From positions 1 to 55,658 of the forward strand of contig CALDZJ010000045.1 in NCBI GenBank assembly GCA_937944055.1: a DNA stretch of 55,658 nt, written 5' to 3'. Both the position numbers and the translations under genes were made by a program. Source of the DNA: an uncultured Verrucomicrobiales bacterium. GTDB taxonomy: Bacteria; Verrucomicrobiota; Verrucomicrobiia; Verrucomicrobiales; Akkermansiaceae. Every line of letters starts with the position of its first letter. Position 1 is the stretch's first letter. A model generated the notes under the pieces. The model was not told the origin of the DNA. It did no database searches and saw nothing but the letters and a program-made list of their open reading frames with translations. Shown here in pieces: positions 18,842 through 21,730 of this stretch.

Positions 18842-19965
18842 TCTCTCTCTCACAAGGCCTCCTTCAAAACGCTCCGCGGATCATTCTCGGGGCGTTTTTT
18901 CTAATCTCCTCCTGCCAAGAAGACTCCACTCCCGCCCCCCACATACCCGAAAAACCAGCAAAATCCACCAGCCCTCCCGCTCACGAAAGTAAAGAGGAGA
19001 CAAGCGAAGAGAACGGCGAAGAGAAAAGCGAAGAAACAAGCGCAGAGCCAGGGAAAGAAGAACCCCGCACCGCGCTCAGTGAGTCCGCTCCACTCAGTGA
19101 GCCCGCTCCACTCAATAAGGAATCTGCCTCTCAAGACATCCGCTTCCTCTCCTATAACCTCAAAAACTACCTCACGATGGACATCATCCGGAAAGGCGGA
19201 GTGAGGGAAAAACGGCCAAAAGACCCCACTGAAATCGCGGCCCTCATCGCCATCATCACTCACGAAAGACCATCCATCTTAGGCCTCTGCGAGATTGGCA
19301 CGCTCGCCGACCTCACCGATCTCCAGTCCCGCTTAAAAGATGCGGGCATTGACCTCCCCCACCGCATCCACGCTGGCGGCTTCGACCAAGTCCGCCGCCT
19401 CGCCATCCTCTCCGCCTACCCCATTCTCGAAAACCGCTCAGAAGAGATTTTGCCCTTCCAGATTGGCGACTTCGAGCGCCACATGGGGCGCGGCATCCTA
19501 AGCGCCCTCATCGACCTCCCCAGCGGCCCCACCCACTTCATCGGCCTTCACCTCAAGTCAAAACGGCCCATTAAAGACATGGACCAAGCCCAAATCCGCC
19601 TCAATGAAGCCCGCCTCGCCAAAGCCCACTGTGACGCCATTCTCGCCGCCCATCCCGCCGCACGCTTAGTACTCTACGGGGACATCAATGACACCCGCAG
19701 AACGCCCCCTATCTCTACCCTAATGGGCCGCTCCAACTCTAAAACACACCTCAGTGACATCTTCGTAAAAGACTCCCGCGGCCACCTCTGGACTCACTAT
19801 TGGTCCTATCAACAACAGTACGCCCGCTTCGACTACGTCTTCACCTCCCGCTCCCTCATCCCAGAAATTGACATGGAAAACTCCTACATCAGCGATCACG
19901 CGCGCTGGGAAGAAGCCTCAGATCATCGCCCCATCATGGTCACCTTTAAAGGGCCCGCAAAATAA
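18838..19965 (+). CDS. Exo/endonuclease/phosphatase-family lipoprotein
   Basis: 375 residues. The signal peptide ends FLISSC, a lipobox. Residues about 30-100 are a low-complexity Glu/Ser/Lys/Pro linker, then the EEP fold: FLSYNLKN (metal-site Asn), LGLCEIG (Glu), GLHLKSKR, LYGDINDT (Asp/Asn), and SDHRPIMV (catalytic Asp-His). All metal and catalytic residues are present, so it is probably an active membrane-anchored phosphodiesterase or nuclease. Substrate cannot be told from sequence. Coupling with tatA is by a 4-base overlap. An 18-bp tandem duplication lies in the linker. Confidence 0.85.
   Translation: MISLSQGLLQNAPRIILGAFFLISSCQEDSTPAPHIPEKPAKSTSPPAHESKEETSEENGEEKSEETSAEPGKEEPRTALSESAPLSEPAPLNKESASQDIRFLSYNLKNYLTMDIIRKGGVREKRPKDPTEIAALIAIITHERPSILGLCEIGTLADLTDLQSRLKDAGIDLPHRIHAGGFDQVRRLAILSAYPILENRSEEILPFQIGDFERHMGRGILSALIDLPSGPTHFIGLHLKSKRPIKDMDQAQIRLNEARLAKAHCDAILAAHPAARLVLYGDINDTRRTPPISTLMGRSNSKTHLSDIFVKDSRGHLWTHYWSYQQQYARFDYVFTSRSLIPEIDMENSYISDHARWEEASDHRPIMVTFKGPAK
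19075..19110 (+). repeat. 18-bp tandem repeat inside the lipoprotein linker
   Basis: Two copies of CTCAGTGAGYCCGCTCCA differ at one base and encode a repeated LSE[SP]AP in the flexible linker. The unit is a multiple of three, so the frame is kept. Confidence 0.8.
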
Positions 19966-20072
19966 GCTCATTTTTCCGGGAATAAATAAGTTCGGGCACA
20001 TTTTCCCGCTTATGCTAAGCTCCTCAAATGGCGCGGAAATAATTCCACTCACGCCACAAACGAAAAAAAACA

Positions 20073-20408
20073 ATGAAAACCAAAATCACCATGATTGCTG
20101 CCTTCGCAGTTCTCTCTGCAGGTGCCATGGCCGCTCCCGGAGCTGCCGGCATCACACAGACTGCTGAAGTTGTCGCTGCCGATGAAAAAACCGTCACCCT
20201 CGTCGTCTCAGGCCTCGTTTGAGCGGGCGGATGCTCAAGAAAAGTGCAGGCTGCACTTAAAAGCGTTAAAGGAGTCTCGAAAGTCGTTGTCGGAAAAAAA
20301 TCCGGAACCAGCGCAGACACCACCGTCACTGCTAATAGCTCCGTAAAAGTCGGAGACATGATCGCAGCCCTTAAGGAAAAAGGCTTCGGTGCCAAAGTAA
20401 AAGGCTAA
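20073..20408 (+). CDS. Probable selenoprotein: secreted heavy-metal-associated (HMA) domain with in-frame UGA
   Basis: Read through a TGA at 20220-20222 (codon 50), the frame gives a 111-residue protein that ends in a normal TAA. Residues 1-20 are a signal peptide (VLSAGAMAA). The rest is MerP/HMA-like: TVTLVVSGLV, then UGA, then AGGCSRKVQAALKSVKGVSK and a final helix KVGDMIAALKEKGFGAKV. The UGA falls on the first Cys of the HMA metal motif in its C-x-x-G-C variant. A 7-bp hairpin with a GGC loop starts 19 bases after the UGA, the place of a bacterial SECIS. Both halves belong to one domain, and a strong terminator follows. The alternative is a nonsense mutation or a sequencing error at TGC/TGT. 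Confidence 0.7.
20242..20258 (+). promoter_or_regulatory. Candidate bacterial SECIS hairpin
   Basis: AAGTGCA and TGCACTT pair perfectly over 7 bp around the loop GGC. The apical G lies 27 bases after the in-frame UGA, within the window where bacterial SECIS loops beginning with G are found. The sequence is also coding, as bacterial SECIS elements are. Confidence 0.55.
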
Positions 20409-20453
20409 CAGACGAAGAGGCTTCACAGCCAAAAAATCTTAGAATAATTTAAC

Positions 20454-20491
20454 AAGCCCCCACCCTGCCCACGCAGAGTGGGGGCTTTTTT
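20454..20491 (+). terminator. Rho-independent terminator after the HMA protein gene
   Basis: AGCCCCCAC pairs with GTGGGGGCT over 9 bp and is followed by six T. It lies 46 bases past the TAA stop. Confidence 0.88.
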
Positions 20492-20584
20492 CATCCCACT
20501 CCTCCCCACCTCCACTTACCCAAAAGAAGGCCTCCCTCTAAAAAAAGAGTTCAGAATTTTCCTCCACCCCCTTAAACCCCAGCC

Positions 20585-21730
20585 ATGCCTCACACCATCA
20601 CAGTTCTCCCGGGCGACGGAATCGGACCAGAAGTCATGGACCTCGCCCTCCATGTCCTAGACGCCGCCGCCGCAAAATTCGACTTCCAAATCTCCCGCTC
20701 CACCCACCTCGTCGGCGGTGCCGCACTAGATGCCACCCAGAACGAGACCCCGCTGCCACAAGAAACCATCGCCGCTTCTGAACAGGCCGATGCCATCCTC
20801 TTCGGCTCCGTCGGCGGCCCAAAATGGGAAAATTTACCCCCAGACATCCAACCTGAACGCGGCGCTCTCCTCCCCCTCCGCAAGCACTTCGGCCTCTTCG
20901 CCAACCTGCGCCCCGGCTCTTGTCACCCCTCCCTCACCCACGCCTCTCCCGTAAAAAACGAACTCATCCCAAATGGCTTTGATGTTCTCTGCGTCCGTGA
21001 ACTCACCGGCGGGATTTACTTTGGCACTCCCAAAGGCCGTGAAGAACGCAATGGCGAGCCCGTCGCCTTCGACACGATGGTTTATAAAAAATCGGAAATT
21101 GAAAACATCCTCCACGTCGCCTTCAAAGCCGCCCAAGGCCGTGATAAACGCCTCACCTCGGTTGACAAAGCGAACGTCCTCGCCACCTCCGTCCTCTGGC
21201 GTGAAACCGCAAACGAAATCGCCGCGCAATACCCTGACGTCACAATGGATCACCTCTACGTGGACAACGCCGCCATGCAACTCGTAAAGCGCCCAGACTC
21301 CTTCGACGTGATCGTCACTGAAAACCTCTTCGGCGACATCCTCTCCGATGAAATGGCCATGATCTCCGGCTCCCTCGGCATGCTCCCTTCCGCCAGCCTC
21401 GGCAACATGAAAGATGATGGCCTCTACTTTGGCATGTATGAGCCCTCCGGCGGCTCCGCACCAGACATCGCCGGAAAAGGCATCGCCAACCCGATCGCAC
21501 AAATCCTCTCCGTCTCAATGATGCTGCGCTACTCCCTCGGAGAAACTGCCGCCGCAGACGCCATCGATCACGCCGTCCAAGCCACCATCGACTCCGGACT
21601 CCGCACCGGCGACCTCTTCACCGGCGCAGAAGGAGAAAGCAAGGTCAACACGATCGAAATGGGCACCGCCATCTTAGCCCATCTCGACAAGGTTAGCCCA
21701 TCTCGACAAGGCCCCCTAAGCCCTCGCTAA
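20585..21730 (+). CDS. leuB: 3-isopropylmalate dehydrogenase
   Basis: Oxidises and decarboxylates 3-isopropylmalate in leucine synthesis, NAD-dependent. 381 residues, slightly long. [14 protein letters not shown] at the start, [41 protein letters not shown], and [20 protein letters not shown] (the isocitrate/isopropylmalate dehydrogenase signature with metal-binding Asp) are all present. The C-terminus is altered: a 19-bp tandem duplication at 21674-21711 shifts the frame after LDK, replacing a short end (LDKAP) with 10 or so extra residues. Activity is probably unaffected. No leuA, leuC or leuD is nearby. Confidence 0.96.
21674..21711 (+). repeat. 19-bp tandem duplication at the leuB 3' end
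   Basis: TTAGCCCATCTCGACAAGG occurs twice without any gap or mismatch. The unit is not a multiple of three, so the second copy is read in another frame. Deleting one copy would bring a TAA directly after AAGGCCCCC. Confidence 0.95.

Follow-up and report, generated by a model that had tools for sequence, protein, structure and literature searches.

A probable selenocysteine at the metal site of a small, apparently exported HMA/MerP-like protein from Akkermansiaceae

The window analysed here is the whole stretch of 55,658 nucleotides, positions 1-55658 of one contig in the draft genome of an uncultured Verrucomicrobiales bacterium (2.59 Mb, 92% complete, 0.03% contaminated). It contains a short gene for an HMA-like protein whose reading frame is crossed by a TGA at the metal site, and the question raised by this locus is whether that TGA is an error, a stop, or a codon for selenocysteine (Sec) and, if the last, what the selenocysteine would do there. 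The evidence brought together below makes it very probable that the gene, which has relatives among marine Verrucomicrobia, encodes an exported selenoprotein with the HMA/MerP fold, in which UGA50 is decoded as selenocysteine with the help of SelB and a hairpin.

The gene, its frame and its predicted fold

The features of the locus are collected in Table 1. On direct reading the frame is accurately rendered in a preliminary description that was made from the sequence alone, with the TGA as codon 50 of 111 residues and a TAA at the end. The codons of the metal site, TGA GCG GGC GGA TGC, read U-A-G-G-C, and hence the TGA replaces the first cysteine of the site; the residues around it are GLV-U-AGGC-SRKVQAALKSVKGV. 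The assignment of the UGA to the first metal-site cysteine, also made in the preliminary description, agrees with an alignment to HMA domains in the PDB, where the Sec50 position falls on the first cysteine of CxxC. The position of the motif therefore stands, but its form has to be amended to U-x-x-x-C, one residue longer than most HMA CxxC sites. Within the window, TGA terminates 10 of 30 long open reading frames, so the genetic code is standard, and a genome-wide reassignment of UGA was rejected on the same count.

Table 1. Features of the selenoprotein locus, with positions in the window
Feature	Position	Strand	Remarks
Coding sequence, putative selenoprotein	20073..20408	+	111 residues if the TGA is Sec50; ends in TAA
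ATG start	20073-20075	+	Direct sequence reading
Probable signal peptide MKTKITMIAAFAVLSAGAMA	20073..20132	+	AxA-type cleavage site by eye; similar hydrophobic N-terminus in relatives
HMA-like domain, residues ~38-109	20184..20399	+	Sub-cut-off Pfam HMA match; AlphaFold fold; Foldseek match to 1osd
In-frame TGA, codon 50, putative Sec50	20220-20222	+	Conservation in relatives; aligned to the first CxxC cysteine of PDB HMA domains
Cys54 (TGC), partner of Sec50 in U-A-G-G-C	20232..20234	+	Invariant in 24/24 alignment rows
Bacterial SECIS-type hairpin, 7 bp, loop GGC (20249-20251)	20242..20258	+	Pairing, covariation, synonymous conservation
TAA stop	20406-20408	+	Direct sequence reading
Probable intrinsic terminator, arms AGCCCCCAC/GTGGGGGCT and T run	20455..20491	+	By eye

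The terminator of the preliminary description can be kept as a probable one. Positions 20455-20463 pair by eye with 20478-20486 and T's follow, but a consensus terminator scan gave a 5-bp version at 20468-20482, and 1.6 such matches are expected by chance in the region. A consensus scan for a sigma-70-type promoter found no match in 19900-20600. An antisense open reading frame of 123 aa on the minus strand (20024-20395) covers the selenoprotein gene and recurs in 9 of 24 neighbourhood sets; it was rejected as a real gene, the simplest reading being that it is probably a codon shadow of the coding strand.

The AlphaFold model of the protein has a mean pLDDT of 71.5, with residues 1-35 below 50. 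Its order of elements (strand 38-46, helix 54-63, strands 68-77 and 80-88, helix 93-102 and strand 106-109) is the beta-alpha-beta-beta-alpha-beta arrangement of HMA domains with the metal loop before helix 1, and the best Foldseek match in the PDB is the oxidised form of MerP (1osd; E 3.6e-4, TMt 0.86). The predicted fold is thus that of HMA/MerP. At the level of sequence the likeness is more distant, as the protein with C in place of U scores 20 bits with Pfam HMA (PF00403), below the gathering cut-off of 24.8. A sequence profile finds domains of ATP7B, CopA, MerP and CopZ, and in the two alignments listed the site of the window protein is one residue longer than CxxC. The N-terminus is signal-peptide-like, with an AMA-A cleavage site judged by eye.

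The same codon among relatives

The searches covered Verrucomicrobiota-type relatives, and 56 domain copies with the TGA and a cysteine four residues on were found in 43 genomes, made up of 51 copies in 41 genomes and five more that add two genomes. Only matches with the TGA and with the cysteine at +4 were taken into the table of 51, so that both are selection rules; in the same way, U and cysteine are each invariant in a 24-row alignment whose rows were all picked for having the TGA. The motif variants among the 51 include UAGGC, UASGC, UAAGC, UPSGC, UGVGC, UGASC and UPNGC. Copies with U-x-x-x-C come from five genera of the window's family (g1, g2, g9, g28 and g32) and from one other family (f2) of the same order. 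A protein search of 58 genomes gave matches in 32 at E <= 0.001, and each of the strongest 21 (E < 1e-16) holds one TGA and no other stop. A contig scan, covering largely the same genomes, returned 12 loci, all 12 in the U form, including one in Rubritalea profundi SAORIC-165.

Wider searches with a profile of the 24 members gave tallies that include Cys-type HMA domains: 49 of 145 genomes in the family (E <= 1e-6), 56 of 386 in the order (E <= 1e-8) and 59 of 387 in the phylum (E <= 1e-6). Among the phylum matches listed, four contain a TGA, namely the window gene and three others (G124, G307 and G367) in which the TGA is an ordinary stop after a CxxC domain. At 29 of the phylum loci (L082-L110) a cysteine takes the U position, with CxxC in 28 and CxxxC in one. 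This last locus (L084, genome G342), from another family of the phylum, is a Cys form with the same spacing, CAVGC within GMSCAVGC, in an exported-looking protein of 90 aa. When it was used as the query, 11 of 288 genomes gave matches at E <= 1e-6, the best non-self match reaching 37.8 bits against 179.8 for itself. A plasmid search gave no match among 72,556 records, and a second pattern match in the window's own genome (G000:C60) was dismissed as chance since its frame is full of stops.

Several kinds of match were left out of the 51. Those with cysteine at the U position are in many cases P-type ATPases, as judged by open-frame length and by eye, and six exported-looking Cys-type proteins of the same family (L163-L168) are double HMA domains with CxxC. 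Three others (L125, L108 and L183) have an ordinary TGA stop after a CxxC domain. The canonical UxxC spacing is found in three HMA-like frames, L123 (G053:C126, GVTUGGC), L124 (G024:C23, GMTUAAC) and L181 (G034:C3, GVVUGGC); L124 keeps a GTGCAG-TCT-GCAC hairpin three bases closer to the TGA, and L123 folds into a different one. A further exported-looking double-domain frame, L182 (G034:C5), has TGAs in frame at two sites (GGGUGAANKVRAAL and GATUAITNGKARAAL), neither of which has the second cysteine. Finally, L040 (G021:C27) is a decayed family fragment without the motif, in a genome that is 97% complete and has selA, selB and selD over cut-off, and it appears to represent loss of the gene in G021.

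The family also has variant architectures. L111 (G100:C47) and L122 (G053:C31) are single frames in which two HMA domains are combined with two in-frame TGAs. A copy of the hairpin stands behind each TGA, and the products are apparently double-Sec proteins. Two adjacent but separate U-form genes occur as tandem copies in genus g9 (L112, G107:C32; L113, G126:C188). In genus g1 there is a second, lipoprotein-like U-x-x-x-C paralogue (L162, G022:C299; L119, L120 and L121) with UPGSC, UPGGC or UPNGC, and several distant members likewise look like lipoproteins by eye, with a cysteine after the hydrophobic stretch.

Constraint on the frame is similar on the two sides of the TGA. For those 19 genes of the 51 that stand closest to the window gene (171 pairs), pN/pS is 0.29 in the 16 codons upstream and 0.30 in downstream codons +1 to +19 with the hairpin codons removed. 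In four comparisons over the whole gene, each of the window gene with one relative, the ratio was 0.21-0.41 before the TGA and 0.33-0.44 after it, so that the downstream part is constrained, but no more strongly than the upstream part. In 49 of the 51 copies no further TGA occurs before the next TAA or TAG; of the exceptions, L072 has one just past the domain that is probably its stop, and in L111 the second TGA belongs to the second U-domain. Translation of the frame past the TGA is therefore strongly supported by these comparisons.

The preliminary description had proposed that the two halves form one domain without decay and had asked which residue homologues carry at this position. The near-equal ratios and the undecayed relatives bear out the former, and the answer to the latter is UGA in 43 genomes and cysteine in distant relatives. 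Relatives with the same stop and further decay were absent, L040 being the one exception seen. The same TGA in 43 genomes, as read from assemblies, also argues against the read-level error that had been considered. Judged from this comparative evidence, the TGA is real, and neither an error nor a sign of decay.

The hairpin and the selenocysteine machinery

The hairpin downstream of the TGA, AAGTGCA-GGC-TGCACTT, starts 19 nt after it, and the loop starts 26 nt after it. The bacterial SECIS model, as it is given in PMC13188914, calls for 4-16 bp in the stem, for a loop that has 3-9 nt, starts 16-37 nt from the UGA and includes a G in its first two positions (mostly as GG or GU), and for a minimum free energy of -7.5 kcal/mol or lower. 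The 7 bp, the GGC loop and the 26 nt all lie within these ranges, and the energy is -14.7 kcal/mol over 56 nt and, at the edge of the limit, -7.4 for the 19-nt hairpin alone. Compared with shuffled sequences, the 56 nt from the TGA have a folding-energy z of -1.29, with 16 of 200 shuffles as good, and the 19-nt hairpin has a z of -2.54, with two of 200 as good. The strength of the hairpin lies in its conservation, not in its energy.

This conservation is seen at synonymous sites. Among the 19 genes pS is 0.000 in the six codons that the hairpin runs through (+7 to +12, K V Q A A L), compared with 0.500 for the rest of the downstream codons and 0.584 for the upstream ones. Among the 51 copies the valine at +8 is encoded by GTG in 49 of 49 cases, compared with 16% GTG among 208 nearby valine codons of the same genes, and the alanine at +11 is encoded by GCA 49 times and by GCG twice, both of the latter rows having GCG at codon +8 as well.

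Pairing was followed in 47 distinct genes (four duplicate 60-base rows having been removed) that were picked by protein, TGA and cysteine and not by hairpin, so that the hairpin recurs at the same offset in relatives chosen without regard to it. The loop starts with G-G or G-U in all 47, and 97.3% of the 329 stem cells pair (nine do not), as against 18-51% when the partners are slid by one to three columns. Two-sided changes are found at the top of the stem, where A-U becomes G-C (CAG/GCT to CGG/TCC) in seven rows with G-U in four, and elsewhere as U-A to C-G in two rows and A-U to U-A at the stem base in one; the rows are related, and these changes are therefore not independent events. The covariation score is 0.159 compared with 0.101 in shuffles, none of 500 shuffles being as high, and the three pairs with a two-sided change were reached in 13 of 500. 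The count of pair types was no better than shuffling (163 of 500). In the five copies outside this alignment 33 of 35 cells pair, and G-C and C-G are added at the outermost pair. On these grounds it is strongly supported, from comparison of sequences, that the hairpin is a SECIS element. The 7-bp GGC hairpin 19 bases from the TGA, which had been put forward as such in the preliminary description, is confirmed as a structure, fits the published model on checking, and has gained strength as a SECIS candidate through its conservation and covariation.

The selenocysteine genes that the preliminary description had suggested looking for are all present in the organism's own genome above cut-off: selA at 486 bits (cut-off 268), selB at 307 (242), selD at 380 (125) and tRNA-Sec at 59 (47). 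The Rfam tRNA-Sec model is by itself unspecific, with matches in 14 of 14 controls and over cut-off in five of them; ARAGORN calls the gene a tRNA-SeC with anticodon tca, and finds a normal tRNA-Cys (gca) near it. The selD gene lies on the window's contig but outside the window (95847-96776; L127) and has an in-frame TGA of its own, with a predicted 8-bp hairpin whose GUC loop starts 33 nt after that TGA.

A tabulated U-x-x-x-C copy is carried by 24 of the 58 genomes. By hand count, 22 of these have selA over cut-off, 21 selB, 21 selD and 18 tRNA-Sec. Many of the gaps, though not all, fall in incomplete genomes: selB and tRNA-Sec are missing over cut-off from G008 (88% complete), selD and tRNA-Sec from G020 (93%) and tRNA-Sec from G026 (97%). 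Where selA is lacking, in 21 genomes, the gene is present in just two, G001 (86% complete) and G022 (72%), each of which has selB and selD above cut-off.

Taken together, these observations suggest how the protein would be made. SelB would bind both Sec-tRNA-Sec, with its UCA anticodon, and the hairpin, and so decode UGA50 as selenocysteine, a step that is strongly supported by computation. The chain would then continue to the TAA and, to judge from its N-terminus, be exported by means of the signal peptide. Both the insertion itself and the export are steps that we infer.

Role of the protein, rival readings and known systems

Once in the cell envelope, the domain would present Sec50 and Cys54 (U-x-x-G-C) in its metal-binding loop, where, to go by the fold and the closest families, the pair may hold a soft metal ion. 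If the protein is indeed a selenoprotein, its role is rather more probably than otherwise the binding or buffering of soft metals outside the cytoplasm, where a selenolate-thiolate pair would hold Hg(II), Ag(I) or Cu(I). Among family models, those that come nearest describe metal chaperones, MerP and metal-binding selenoproteins, and distant relatives have cysteine at the U position.

The main rival is a redox role, in which Sec50 and Cys54 would form a selenenylsulfide and the protein would work in the envelope on peroxides, disulfides or selenium compounds, as a reductase and not as a binder of metals. Such a role would be in line with the 2008 ocean survey, where 33 of 51 selenoprotein families are given as thiol-oxidoreductase homologues or Trx-like (PMC2398784). 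The first fold match is, moreover, to MerP in its oxidised form, and the neighbourhoods looked at showed no genes for metal resistance. The predicted fold is nevertheless HMA and not thioredoxin-like, and the nearest family models are those just named for metals, which leave a redox function unlikely, if still a serious contender.

The neighbourhood can be described from 48 loci (1.9-10 kb, own and duplicate records included), of which 17 have a LeuB-like gene, so labelled by eye; as far as labels show, all 17 are in genus g1. Ten neighbour proteins from other loci comprised two TPR proteins, one each of MFS, vWF_A, pseudouridine synthase, peptidase M23, aldolase and DAHP synthase, and two without an assignment. 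No metal-resistance or other metal genes were seen at the neighbour loci looked at, and the surroundings of the gene thus lend the metal role no support.

The remaining rivals concern the codon rather than the function of the protein. Insertion of selenocysteine is generally incomplete, so that a truncated and a full product may both occur, and the TGA could be imagined as a regulated stop whose main product is an exported peptide of 49 residues, the full protein being made only when selenium is plentiful. This is very improbable, since most of the domain lies beyond the TGA, in sequence that is itself under purifying selection. Slightly less credit is due to decoding without selenium, in which a variant tRNA or leaky readthrough would put cysteine or some other residue at the UGA. 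The cysteine found at this position in distant relatives would suit it, but the genome has the full selenocysteine set, a UGA-containing selD and the SECIS-like hairpin, whose synonymous sites would not be frozen by readthrough, and ARAGORN calls the UCA tRNA as SeC with a normal tRNA-Cys (gca) near. A pseudogene or an assembly error turning a cysteine codon into TGA, which would account for a single in-frame TGA in a single genome and might recall the decayed fragment in G021, is rejected as next to impossible given the same TGA in 43 genomes and purifying selection on both sides of it.

The preferred reading remains that of an exported selenoprotein, probably a binder of soft metals. A broader proposal may be drawn from it, which we hold only tentatively. 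Akkermansiaceae and some relatives in the order may export lineage-specific selenocysteine metal traps in single, lipoprotein-like and double-Sec tandem forms, nearly all with U-x-x-x-C, in which selenium would hold soft metals rather than catalyse and the supply of selenium would set soft-metal tolerance in seawater. Six codons would then be locked jointly by a helix of the protein and by the SECIS hairpin.

Apart from enzymes in which selenocysteine is a metal ligand, most known selenoproteins are redox proteins. Such ligation in enzymes is described for molybdenum, tungsten or nickel (PMC1088965). If the present reading is true, a selenocysteine placed in the loop with which a small exported protein carries metal would extend the known uses of selenium. 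Genes of this kind would easily be missed, since callers that end at the UGA leave a fragment of 49 residues. The presence of the gene in Rubritalea profundi SAORIC-165, a named strain, makes both the insertion of selenium and the affinity for metals directly testable, and a hairpin conserved at synonymous sites offers a well-defined SECIS for studying recognition by SelB.

Among known systems, the model with the best NCBIfam E-value for the window protein is UxxU_metal_bind (NF041115), which is listed as a UxxU selenoprotein in a table of a 2026 review. Its profile covers the HMA-like part with selenocysteine at the metal site, yet the window protein scores 35.4 bits against a cut-off of 95. 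Unlike NF041115, which has two selenocysteines (UxxU), the window protein has one, together with a longer U-x-x-x-C loop and a signal-peptide-like N-terminus; over all 24 alignment members it is the CopZ model, NF047957, that gives the lower best E-value. The second selenoprotein model, so designated by name, is the MerT/CopZ fusion-like heavy metal transport selenoprotein (NF045683), whose CopZ-like part matches with 19.7 bits against a cut-off of 375. This is by name a fusion, of 235 positions with a MerT-like part, whereas the window gene encodes a stand-alone domain of 111 aa.

The Cys-type families are related in a similar manner. MerP (TIGR02052) shares the fold and the periplasmic place, at 26.8 bits against a cut-off of 92.55, and CopZ (NF047957) shares the fold, at 30.8 bits against 85. 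Both differ from the window protein, which has selenocysteine for the first cysteine and one extra residue in the metal loop. No mer genes were present among the neighbours looked at.

A third precedent comes from the Global Ocean Sampling survey of 2008, in which a row of Table 2 (PMC2398784) gives a 'Mercuric transport protein MerP' selenoprotein with two sequences from one sample and no Cys homologues. It is likewise a MerP-like selenoprotein from the ocean, and, judged by that table row, the pair may belong to the family of the window protein. Literature searches found no description of a U-x-x-x-C family, with the survey's 'MerP' compared by its table row only. The view in the preliminary description that selenocysteine in a secreted metal-binding chaperone would be unusual holds, but it is not unprecedented, given NF041115, NF045683 and the survey's 'MerP'. 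HMA-type selenoproteins were thus already known, and what appears to be new, as far as sequence comparison goes, is the variant with one selenocysteine in U-x-x-x-C, far below the cut-offs of both models, to which the ocean pair may belong; it is set apart from the known HMA selenoproteins by its low scores, its single selenocysteine and its different spacing.
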